IMG/VR virus record: IMGVR_UViG_3300037517_000770
Location: 1 to 28,121 of that record
Direction: 5' to 3' (one strand)
Source: a virus
DNA length: 28,121 nt
The translations under genes and the position numbers were made by a program. Shown here in pieces: positions 24,968 through 27,925 of this stretch (positions within the stretch are counted from its first letter, which is position 1; each line of letters starts with the position of its first letter). A model generated the notes under the pieces. That model did no database searches. It was not told the DNA's origin and saw only the letters and a list, made by a program, of their open reading frames with translations.

Positions 24968-25325
24968 ACTCAATCACCTGCTGCTCGAGCTGCGACACGA
25001 ACTCAGCCACCTCGCCAGCCGTCACGCCAGGGTTGGCCAGCCGGTAGACCCTCACCGCTTCCGCAATCCGCTGGCCGTGTGCGACCTTTGGATTGTGGCT
25101 TCGCCGGTTCCAGCTGCGATACTCAATCACCGCACGCCGTACCACGCTGGCAGGCGGCATGCAGTCACGGGTTCGGCCGACCTTCAGGATGGCGGCCGAC
25201 AACTCGTCACGGTCGAACTCGCCCAGCACCAGATGCCAGGCGTTGACATCGACCTCGGTCAGCTCGCGGCCGAACAGGCTGAACAGTGCCGCCAGCATCA
25301 GGCCCAGTTCACTTCGATTGACCAT
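24954..25325 (-). CDS. helicase-loader-type replication protein (G39P-like), tentative
   Basis: A 123-residue helical protein. An N-terminal helix (ELGLMLAALFSLFGRELTEV) is followed by VDVNAWHLVLGEFDRDELSAAI, KVGRTRDCMPPASVVRRAVI. This pattern (short acidic segment, A-I-x-x-x, then a proline-containing P-x-x-x-x-x-R) resembles phage loader/inhibitor proteins of the G39P type, which partner an initiator and a hexameric helicase. It lies directly downstream of the initiator-like gene with GGAGG before its ATG. Family call is moderate to weak. Confidence 0.5.
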   Translation of the reverse strand: MVNRSELGLMLAALFSLFGRELTEVDVNAWHLVLGEFDRDELSAAILKVGRTRDCMPPASVVRRAVIEYRSWNRRSHNPKVAHGQRIAEAVRVYRLANPGVTAGEVAEFVSQLEQQVIEYERG

Positions 25326-26352
25326 TGGAACCTCCTAGGAATCCTGCCACGCCTGCCTCCTCCTGAGCCTTAATCCGCTGCAGCATCTCGGCCATGTTCT
25401 GCTGCCGCTGCTGGCCGAAGGTGACCGGCTTGGCGCTGGCCTTGCCGCTATTGCCTCGCAGGTCGTTGCGTTCCCATTGGCGAACAGCCGCCTTCCAGTC
25501 CTTCATGGGGTTCTTGCCGACCTTCCAGCCGTTGGCTGTGTAGTGGTCCATCCACTCGTGCGGGTCGACGGTGTTGCCACGTTCCTTGCAGTACGCCACC
25601 ACATCCTCGATTGTCGGTCGCACCATTGAGATACCACTCTTAGTGGTATCTCTTTCTTCTCTTCTCTCCTGTACTGTGGTCACGCTTTTGTCACAAACTT
25701 TTGTGACATTTTTGTGACGCAATTCATCAGGTGTTTTGTTGCTCAATTTTTGATTGCAAACAGTGCAGCAAGTCACCAAATTTTCAGCGTTTGTGGCACC
25801 ACCACGGCTTTCTGGCTGGACGTGATGCACCGACAATTTAGCGCCAATGTACGGACCGACCACCGCTTTTTTGCTAGGGTTCCACTGGCAATAAACGCAC
25901 GTAAACCCGTCACGCTCGTAGACCTCTCGCCGCACCGCAGCCGGAACGTGATCTTTTTGTTTGTTTGCTGTCACAACTTTTTGTGACATTTGTGTGACAC
26001 GTTCTTTTTGCTTCCTTCGAGAGGCTGAAATCCGCTTTTTTGCGGACTCGCCCAGCCATCGGTCCCAGTTCGGAAAGCTGATGTAAGGCTTGCCGTCGGT
26101 GTCCACGCCATGCTCCAGCCATCCAGCGTCGGCCATCAGCTGCGGAAAGTCCGGCAGGGATGTCACCCTGCCCAGCGATGTTAGCGTGACGTGCTTGACG
26201 CAGCCGTCTTGCGACTGGCGTGACGCCCACGCCCAGATTCGATGCAGGTAGCCGACAATGACTTCCTCTCGCTGGCCAATACGCTCGGCCATGTAGGTCA
26301 CCGCCGGGTCTTCGTACAGGTCCAGCCGCATTGGTATCCAATCACCAGCCAT
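25309..26352 (-). CDS. replication initiator with an internal HNH domain
   Basis: A 347-residue protein; coordinates below count from the second Met. Residues 1-115 look like a phage replisome-organiser winged-helix domain (DWIPMRLDLYEDPAVTYMAE ... WAWASRQSQDGCVKH ... ISFPNWDRWLGESAKKR). Residues 135-212 are a complete HNH nuclease: VYERDGFTCVYC, LSVHHVQPESRGG, NAENLVTCCTVCNQKL. Residues 245-295 (RPTIEDVVAYCKERGNTVDP ... GWKVGKNPMKDWKAAVRQWE) match the C-terminal partner-binding domain of replication proteins. GGGAGG lies six bases before ATG 26352. It is followed by a helicase-loader-type gene. The DNA also contains origin-like repeats. Confidence 0.8.
   Translation of the reverse strand: MAGDWIPMRLDLYEDPAVTYMAERIGQREEVIVGYLHRIWAWASRQSQDGCVKHVTLTSLGRVTSLPDFPQLMADAGWLEHGVDTDGKPYISFPNWDRWLGESAKKRISASRRKQKERVTQMSQKVVTANKQKDHVPAAVRREVYERDGFTCVYCQWNPSKKAVVGPYIGAKLSVHHVQPESRGGATNAENLVTCCTVCNQKLSNKTPDELRHKNVTKVCDKSVTTVQERREERDTTKSGISMVRPTIEDVVAYCKERGNTVDPHEWMDHYTANGWKVGKNPMKDWKAAVRQWERNDLRGNSGKASAKPVTFGQQRQQNMAEMLQRIKAQEEAGVAGFLGGSNGQSK
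25628..25720. other. candidate replication origin inside the initiator gene
   Basis: In coding-strand order: three GTCACAA-type units (25720-25690; two direct at 11-bp spacing, then one inverted), then a purine tract AGGAGAGAAGAGAAGAAAGA (25671-25652), then a perfect 11-bp inverted repeat with 3-base loop (25628-25638 / 25642-25652, GAGATACCACT arms). The layout iterons, purine-rich tract, palindrome is that of the lambda origin within gene O. Confidence 0.6.
25690..26000. repeat. two 31-bp iteron clusters flanking the HNH-coding DNA
   Basis: 25690-25720 and 25970-26000 match at 27 of 31 bases. Each has GTCACAA in one orientation and two copies of its reverse (TTGTGAC-type) at 11-bp spacing. 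The two copies are in different reading frames of the same gene, so the similarity is kept at DNA level, not protein level. They lie either side of the HNH-coding segment, 280 bp apart. Confidence 0.8.
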
Positions 26353-27482
26353 CATTCACCTCCCGTCAGCCTGTCCATTGCCATCCTTGCCACCACTTCA
26401 GCCACCTGCGGAACTATGGCGTTGCCGAGGCATCGCAACTTGTTGACTCGGTTTGGGATTCTGGTTGCGACTCGCCCGGCAAATCGCACTAGTCCACCGG
26501 AAACCCCATTAACCAGCTCACCCATTGCGGGTTCAGCTGCCCACCAGCCACCGCTGCCAGTGTCGGCGTGTTCCGTTCGTGTTCCGCCGGGTAGCCGCCC
26601 TCCTTGGCGTTGTGTGCCGTTGGTGTCGGCAGGAACTTGACCGCTGCTTCCAGCGAAATCTGCTTGCCAATTGCCATCCGCCTGGCTGTACTGTTCTGCG
26701 TTGCCCATGGTCGATTGTCTGAGGCGTTTGGTGTCGGCCACCACTTCACCGCATCGTTCAGCGTTATCGACTGCTTGGTCCCGCTCGGCCTCTTGCCTGT
26801 TGGCCTGTTCTTCGATACTCGGCCGCCGGTGCCCATGCTTGCGTCGGGTGTAGGCCACATCGCCATTTCCACGGGTGTCGGTGTTCGTCCTTGCCTGGAC
26901 TTCTCGCTGCGTCCCGTTCCTTTTGCCATCGCTGCCGTTGGTGTTCCGACAGTTATCTGGCAGCTCGGCCATTTCTGCATACTGGGACAGAGCTGATTCG
27001 CCGTTGCTGTAGGCGAGAATAAAAACCCTGTCCCGGATATGCGGGGCACCAACGGCGGCAGCCGGTATGCAATGCCACTCCGCATCAAACCCGACCTCGG
27101 CCAGCGTCCCGAGAACTCGGTCCAGCCCTCTAGTAAGCAACGCTGCCACGTTCTCCAAGACAACTGCTCTCGGTTGCAATTCTCGAACCAAGCGAATGGC
27201 TTCAAAGAACAACCCGCTTCTGGCTCCATCAAGGCCTGCTCCTTTCCCGGCGTAGGAAATATCCACACAGGGAAATCCGCCGATGATGCAATCGACGCGC
27301 TCGAGGTTGTGTTGTCCGCACTGCCGGATGTCTCGCTCCCGATGCACGTCTGGCCAGTGCCGCTTAAGGATTTTCGTCGCATAGTCATCAATCTCCACCT
27401 GCCACTTGCACTGAAACCCAGCCCGTTCAAAACCTAAGTCAAACCCGCCAATGCCTGCGAACAAGCTCCCAAACGTCAGCAT
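26352..27482 (-). CDS. C5 cytosine DNA methyltransferase
   Basis: A 376-residue enzyme. Motif I SLFAGIGGFDLGFERAGF, motif II VEIDDYA, motif IV GGFPCVDIS with catalytic Cys72, motif VI LENV (E110, N111), motif VIII IRDRVFILA and C-terminal motif X RCLGNAIVPQVAE are all present and in order. The region between motif VIII and X (about 160-300) is hydrophilic and Asn/Thr/Arg-rich. Start set at ATG 27482, five bases after GGAGG; earlier starts lack a proper SD. It likely protects phage DNA from host restriction. The same DNA has a long second frame described in the findings. Confidence 0.88.
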   Translation of the reverse strand: MLTFGSLFAGIGGFDLGFERAGFQCKWQVEIDDYATKILKRHWPDVHRERDIRQCGQHNLERVDCIIGGFPCVDISYAGKGAGLDGARSGLFFEAIRLVRELQPRAVVLENVAALLTRGLDRVLGTLAEVGFDAEWHCIPAAAVGAPHIRDRVFILAYSNGESALSQYAEMAELPDNCRNTNGSDGKRNGTQREVQARTNTDTRGNGDVAYTRRKHGHRRPSIEEQANRQEAERDQAVDNAERCGEVVADTKRLRQSTMGNAEQYSQADGNWQADFAGSSGQVPADTNGTQRQGGRLPGGTRTEHADTGSGGWWAAEPAMGELVNGVSGGLVRFAGRVATRIPNRVNKLRCLGNAIVPQVAEVVARMAMDRLTGGE

Positions 27483-27925
27483 CCCTGCCTCCATCCCTGC
27501 GTTCGTGCCCATTCCGCAATCAGCAGGCTGTCCGCATTGGCGTGCGTGATTTTCATAAACGGCCAGCGACGCTGGGCCTCAGCCTTGCTGACGTTCTTGT
27601 CGCCTTTGGTGAGGCAACCCATCTGCTGCTGCCACTTCTGCGGACGGACTAGCAGGTACGGCACCTGGTTGGCATCCAGCAAGCCAAGCACATGGCCGAA
27701 GCTCTGGCCGAAGGTGAACGCCGATTTAACGCCCATCTGCGGCGAGCTGTGAACCTGCTCAAGTGCGGCCTTGGCCCGGTGCAAATCGAACTGGTGGAAC
27801 CAGTCGGCGATGTCCTTGCCGGTGCCGTCCAGCTTGCAGGGGCTGCCGTCCCAAGGCGTCCCGTCGTCCCAGATCGCCGACACGCTGCCGCTCTTGCCGG
27901 GGTCAATTCCGAAGTAAATCGCCAT
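27476..27925 (-). CDS. RuvC-like Holliday-junction resolvase
   Basis: A 149-residue RNase-H-fold nuclease. Catalytic acids: Asp8 in FGIDPGKSG, Glu56 in AALEQVHSSPQMGV, and Asp132 in THANADSLLIAEW. The segment FTFGQSFGHVLGLL is the family's DNA-contact loop. SD CGGAGG precedes ATG 27925. It overlaps the methyltransferase gene by seven bases. It would resolve branched replication intermediates before packaging. Confidence 0.85.
   Translation of the reverse strand: MAIYFGIDPGKSGSVSAIWDDGTPWDGSPCKLDGTGKDIADWFHQFDLHRAKAALEQVHSSPQMGVKSAFTFGQSFGHVLGLLDANQVPYLLVRPQKWQQQMGCLTKGDKNVSKAEAQRRWPFMKITHANADSLLIAEWARTQGWRQGC

Follow-up and report, generated by a model that had tools for sequence, protein, structure and literature searches.

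Multispecific C5-cytosine methyltransferases of the phage SPbeta type have several recognition modules in tandem, located after motif VIII and before motif IX, in a single chain that is read in one frame. These enzymes were reportedly treated by Trautner et al. in 1996 (cited in PMC12707154). M.EcoHK31I has a small subunit whose coding sequence lies in an alternative, overlapping frame. This YGGCCR enzyme consists of two polypeptides, the large one containing motifs I-VIII together with motif X and the small one motif IX, and its predicted recognition domain has been placed in the large subunit (PMC3404938). M.AquI (CYCGRG) is a split C5 methyltransferase with motifs I-VIII in one chain and motifs IX-X in the other (PMC3404938). 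A different kind of frame overlap has been reported from ShiLan, where an out-of-frame HNH element, a homing endonuclease insertion, resides in a phage methylase whose host frame is free of stops (PMC11855218).

We compared these systems to a locus on the minus strand of the window, by which we mean the whole stretch of 28,121 nucleotides that was analysed (IMG/VR virus record IMGVR_UViG_3300037517_000770). Two frames of this locus, A and B, overlap on the same DNA, and their predicted products are here called alpha and beta. As in M.EcoHK31I, motifs I-VIII and X are found in one frame and motif IX in the other, the likeness being one of motif distribution, with the window known as reading frames. 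Frame B of the window is in +1 and nested in A, which recalls the overlap in M.EcoHK31I; unlike in that enzyme, it is the small-subunit frame in which the module region is constrained. Three relatives, L018, L030 and Streptomyces phage Samy, look like M.AquI, with motifs IX and X in B; M.AquI differs from the window, where motif X belongs to the alpha frame and beta is nested inside alpha. The tandem modules, putatively for recognition, recall the SPbeta-type enzymes, but those of the window are in another frame and probably in another chain. Like ShiLan, the window has a gene hidden in the other frame of a phage methylase, but this gene would encode the enzyme's own recognition part and not an HNH element. 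The PHROG families of alpha (phrog_363) and beta (phrog_1008) are separate, both are labelled DNA methyltransferase, and we found no statement that they are nested. Our literature search returned no description of the nested arrangement; most subscription journals lie outside its coverage, and this absence is no proof of novelty.

Two reading frames in one methyltransferase locus

Frame A encodes a C5-cytosine methyltransferase, as judged from Pfam, NCBIfam and PHROGs (PF00145, 1.1e-50; TIGR00675, 9.9e-44; phrog_363, 2e-77). Its open frame reaches back to ATG 27512 (26352..27512, minus strand, 386 aa), upstream of the likely start (Table 1). Motifs I, VI, VIII and X are present in this frame, based on PF00145, an alignment with M.HhaI and a motif X that is ordered in the AlphaFold model. 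Known structures (M.HhaI) align to A over residues 12-171 only. The AlphaFold model, calculated from 51 sequences, has pLDDT values of 94-97 across most of the catalytic part and of 80-96 in the motif X helix; residues 188-345 are mostly below 50, and no folded recognition domain is seen. The glutamine in motif IV (PCQ) is >90% conserved in relatives and is replaced by valine in the window copy. A RuvC-like Holliday junction resolvase gene (27476-27925) is located directly upstream of alpha, whose ATG 27482 falls just ahead of the resolvase stop; a similar resolvase ORF lies downstream of the methyltransferase in L060. On the other side of the locus, a replication-initiation-like protein (25309-26355; phrog_2509 for its N-terminal part) contains an HNH domain in mid-protein (PF01844, 4e-10), which its sequence suggests to be an in-frame insertion.

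A preliminary description of this DNA had pointed to a second open frame at 26489-27430 and to two recognisable sequences on one DNA segment. We could confirm both. The second frame (26489..27430, minus strand) encodes 313 aa from a TTG and is in +1 relative to A, such that B position 1 is A position 2, B position 2 is A position 3 and B position 3 is the next A position 1. It contains the quoted sequences WPTPDAS, WWPTPNASDN, FLPTPTAH and GGQLNPQWVSWLMGFPVD, and it matches phrog_1008, 'DNA methyltransferase' (1.9e-29). No family in Pfam or NCBIfam was matched by B, its matches were methyltransferase PHROGs and unknowns only, with no HNH endonuclease among them, and a PDB search using the beta profile gave no match. 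B alone was modelled by AlphaFold with a pLDDT of 54, which is not confident and was not used for fold searches; the chain may fold only with its partner, the model being evidence neither way.

Table 1. Features of the methyltransferase locus in the window (minus strand, -)
Feature	Position	Frame	Remarks
Alpha gene	26352..27482 (-)	A	likely start ATG 27482, 376 aa; a linker without constraint separates motifs I-VIII from motif X
Motif I, FGSLFAGIGGF	27441..27473 (-)	A	M.HhaI alignment; conserved among relatives
Motif IV, GGFPCVDIS	27255..27281 (-)	A	catalytic Cys kept; PCV instead of PCQ
Shine-Dalgarno-like AAAGGAG	27239..27245 (-)		ATG 27229 follows after 9 nt; lies within the A codons for GKGAG
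Beta gene	26489..27229 (-)	B	246 aa from putative start ATG 27229, +1 to A; open frame runs upstream to 27430
Motif VI, ENV	27147..27155 (-)	A	same DNA encodes conserved 'SWRTWQRCLL' in B; dual constraint begins about here
Motif VIII, GAPHIRDR	27027..27050 (-)	A	M.HhaI alignment
Degenerate joint SPTA	27005-27016	B
Degenerate joint GTPT	26936-26947	B
WPTP joint	26846..26857 (-)	B
Beta module DASMGTGGRVSKNRPTGKRPSGTKQSITLNDAVKW	26741..26845 (-)	B	module clustering
WPTP joint	26729..26740 (-)	B
Beta module NASDNRPWATQNSTARRMAIGKQISLEAAVKF	26633..26728 (-)	B	module clustering; occurs in L231 too
LPTP joint	26621..26632 (-)	B
Beta module TAHNAKEGGYPAEHERNTPTLAAVAGGQ	26537..26620 (-)	B	cluster with 15 distinct members
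Motif IX-like LNPQWVSWLMGFP	26498..26536 (-)	B	B third base fastest in 73/76 pairs
Motif X, LRCLGNAIVPQ	26406..26438 (-)	A	A third base fastest in 66/73 pairs; ordered in AlphaFold model

The end of B, 'LNPxWVEWLMGFPxGW', matches the pattern of motif IX and has the corresponding place before motif X. Motif IX precedes motif X in one frame in L018 and L030 (frame B) and in L028 and L039 (frame A). Between one and about seven units, linked by [WLF]PTP, lie upstream of motif IX in B. Single-linkage clustering merged nearly all of these modules, and a stricter clustering was thus used, which yielded 33 recurring modules with at least four distinct members each. Many of them recur in differing slots or orders and next to differing neighbours, in viruses as well as in bacterial genomes. 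The modules resemble the target-recognition domains that multispecific phage methyltransferases carry in tandem and by analogy may serve in recognition. In the window, this putative recognition region and motif IX, as assigned by pattern and position, are present only in frame B. The N-terminal element of B, 'LARYDPDTSSWRTSQ', overlaps motif VI of A; L030 keeps a similar element where A has an insertion, suggesting that the element is a genuine part of B.

A single start codon for B common to all relatives was not found, only an enrichment of start codons with Shine-Dalgarno sequences at one stretch. The best combined score of start and Shine-Dalgarno sequence beats that of synonymous shuffles (p = 6e-13, 179 loci), and the commonest site is located inside the GKGxG codons of A, as is the case in the window.

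The two-frame layout recurs in phages and bacteria

Relatives were gathered by tblastn and profile scans with B, plus a scan with A. The B sequence of the window retrieved 14 phage records and 2 plasmids, a consensus-like B 164 phage records, and a third B query 14 plasmids. B was further located at 26 loci in IMG/VR, in at least 600 stretches of viral sequence and at 133 loci in bacterial genomes from many phyla. The scan with A, which is unbiased towards B, contributed 80 further viral loci, and a distant DNA search in E. coli genomes gave no match. A and B share one +1 register in the loci that were examined at the outset. Of the 277 loci with a recognisable catalytic part, 158 combine WPTP modules and motif IX in B with a motif X back in A. 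There are 159 loci with motif IX in B and motif X in A, and in 158 of these no stop interrupts A between the start of the catalytic part and the end of motif X. In all, hundreds of sequences from phages and bacteria show the two-frame arrangement. Two layout variants occur: motifs IX and X are both in B in L018 and L030, as they are in Samy, and the modules are in B with IX and X in A in L028, L029, L031, L039 and L181. As L018, L030 and Samy carry IX and X in B, this frame supplies methyltransferase motifs.

An intact single-frame form containing both parts was not found among the relatives. Three candidates for in-frame fusions (L149, L060 and L073) were rejected, as single-base indels join their A and B pieces; the indels may be due to sequencing error or to decay. 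The ancestral frameshift considered in the preliminary description thus finds no intact one-frame relative to back it.

Annotation of the two parts is uneven, and most often just one gene is called. The depositors of Paenibacillus phage Bloom annotated both nested coding sequences (56 and 57, +1), and in Samy and KBurrousTX both parts are annotated as successive genes. Rhodococcus phage ReT1v-2 has an annotated B plus a fragment of A only, and other records have either A alone or B alone. In the phage records of L029 and L296, beta is called a hypothetical protein, and alpha is missed or called only as a fragment. L119 (2263-3357) contains an insertion between methyltransferase motifs VI and VIII with an endonuclease-like ORF (phrog_5046, 2.7e-27; weak LAGLIDADG_1), which is read in frame B, continuous with beta, with A open too; this may be compared to the ShiLan element.

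Selection and stop avoidance distinguish the frames

We determined substitution rates at A positions 1/2/3 in disjoint pairs of relatives. In motifs I-VI, these rates are.157/.100/.418, and the A third base is the fastest in 65/65 pairs; motifs VI-VIII have.218/.113/.310. The module region shows.391/.155/.128, with the A first base, which is the B third base, being the fastest in all 33 of 33 pairs (p = 1e-67). The pattern continues in motif IX (.268/.120/.119; 73/76 pairs) and is reversed in motif X (.140/.082/.340; 66/73 pairs). A smaller, earlier set of relatives behaved in the same way, A position 1 is the fastest in 8/8 alignments of the window's own modules with distant loci, and the alignment with L231 across NASDNRPWATQNSTARRMAIGKQISLEAAVKF and the next module has changes at 35/66, 13/66 and 6/66 of A positions 1, 2 and 3. 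A slow A third base together with a fast A first base is impossible if A alone is translated and is the pattern expected of a coding B. The codon-level test in both frames, which the preliminary description had called for, hence identifies the second frame as a real coding sequence that is selected over the modules and motif IX, and not as a neutral shadow.

Both frames are constrained in motifs VI-VIII. Here, synonymous codons of A are 3-5x more conserved than expected at many sites (Leu CTT in 52/53, Ala GCC in 61/63, Gly GGG in 66/69; Ile ATA, 49/59, at 1.9x), with values near 1x in motifs I-IV.

The length of the second frame was assessed in shuffles that keep the A protein and its codon usage fixed. 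Of 2000 shuffles, whose mean run was 170 codons, 0.25% attained the 314 codons of the second frame (p = 0.0025), and the third frame has the expected length in the same shuffles. In relatives, the second-frame run is mostly far beyond the shuffles, with p<=0.05 in only 3.8% of 104 control genes. The gene of Paenibacillus phage Bloom, at 47% GC, has 236 open second-frame codons, which 0/2000 shuffles reach.

Synonymous shuffles of B in 69 loci would generate 195 stops in A, where 29 are observed. L018 and L030, in which A ends after motif VIII, account for 24 of these 29, with 24 expected; outside of these two loci, 5 stops are observed versus 171 expected. The third frame shows no avoidance (407 stops versus 382 expected). 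A therefore has to be read all the way to motif X. Its residues across the modules are otherwise free, the rate at the A first base (.391) approaching that of the A third base in motifs I-VI.

These results bear on the other readings offered in the preliminary description. A frameshift that switches the recognition region is disfavored because A is stop-free across the whole region. The notion that the two family resemblances are frame shadows of each other holds in one direction: TGGCCNACNCC reads W-P-T-P in B and V-A-[DNHY]-[TSAP] in A, which explains the double resemblance to WPTP and VADT, and the VADT text of A shadows B, with no shadowing in the opposite direction. Over the recognition region, it is B that is constrained, and A is its shadow. 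Two proteins, a catalytic and a recognition subunit made from overlapping frames, fit best and better than the ancestral frameshift, the frameshift switch or mutual shadows.

A probable split enzyme and its alternatives

We conclude that the locus very probably represents a naturally split C5-cytosine methyltransferase, with its two subunits located in overlapping frames of one DNA. Alpha would comprise motifs I-VIII, as the domain for SAM binding and catalysis, and motif X, as the closing helix, connected by a linker of ~150 residues that would be unconstrained, is probably disordered and need only stay stop-free. Beta, in +1, would begin inside alpha, probably at ATG 27229 and with its own ribosome-binding site, and would form the target-recognition part, in which exchangeable modules joined by WPTP motifs end in motif IX. 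Together, the two subunits would form a single active enzyme, in which the module set would determine the sequence or sequences to be methylated. Speaking against this model are the lack of a B start shared by all relatives, the pLDDT of 54 for B alone and the oddities of the window copy (PCV, TAG).

Selection goes from A to B and back to A in just the order expected for a single polypeptide made by two programmed frameshifts, one from A to B after motif VIII and one from B to A before motif X. We consider such a product very unlikely, since it would not need A to be stop-free across the modules, yet stops are avoided there, and the avoidance is gone exactly where A ends early. In addition, B is constrained from motif VI already, over motifs VI-VIII of A, which a switch after motif VIII does not need, and by eye no conserved slippery site is seen at the junction. 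It is highly improbable that B is a separate protein of different function, such as a regulator or a counter-defence protein, that happens to be nested in a complete monomeric methyltransferase A: its failure to match Pfam or NCBIfam would be in line with this idea, but motif X follows motif IX in B of L018, L030 and Samy, and A is without a folded or conserved recognition region. That the second frame is a chance opening or a compositional shadow of A, as might be argued from the frequency of long second frames at high GC and from the p-value of only 0.0025 for the window alone, we regard as practically untenable: it is refuted by the codon-position test, and the control genes, the homologous modules in distant hosts and the relatives of low GC content such as Bloom argue against it as well.

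A further scenario is compatible with the split enzyme as the explanation for the family: the family system could be real and the window copy decaying. Motif IV reads PCV, the near relative L060 has indels, and B ends at a TAG (26489-26491) just after GFPVD and motif IX, where L060 has TGG (Trp), a change that is silent in A (CTA/CTG). The copy may thus be in a weakened or decaying state, however sound the family. Against decay, both frames are still open over ~250-380 codons, and the core of motif IX and motif X are intact; we rate this scenario as unlikely.

For the family, the split methyltransferase would have consequences beyond this virus. Gene callers usually report one product, and many entries named 'DNA cytosine methyltransferase' would hence represent the catalytic half only. 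If so, the annotated recognition region in such entries is a meaningless frame shadow, which would explain why activity could not be cloned, or specificity not be predicted, from the annotated protein. On balance, we favor the view that C5 methyltransferases with a catalytic and a combinatorial, module-swapping specificity subunit in two frames of one DNA form a large class in phages and bacteria that is for the most part unannotated. Modules could be exchanged in this class without touching catalytic function, and it may be among the most widespread long nested overlaps in prokaryotes. The locus set would then serve as a natural testing ground for long gene overlaps on the same strand in prokaryotes, and exchangeable specificities for cytosine methylation could be drawn from it.
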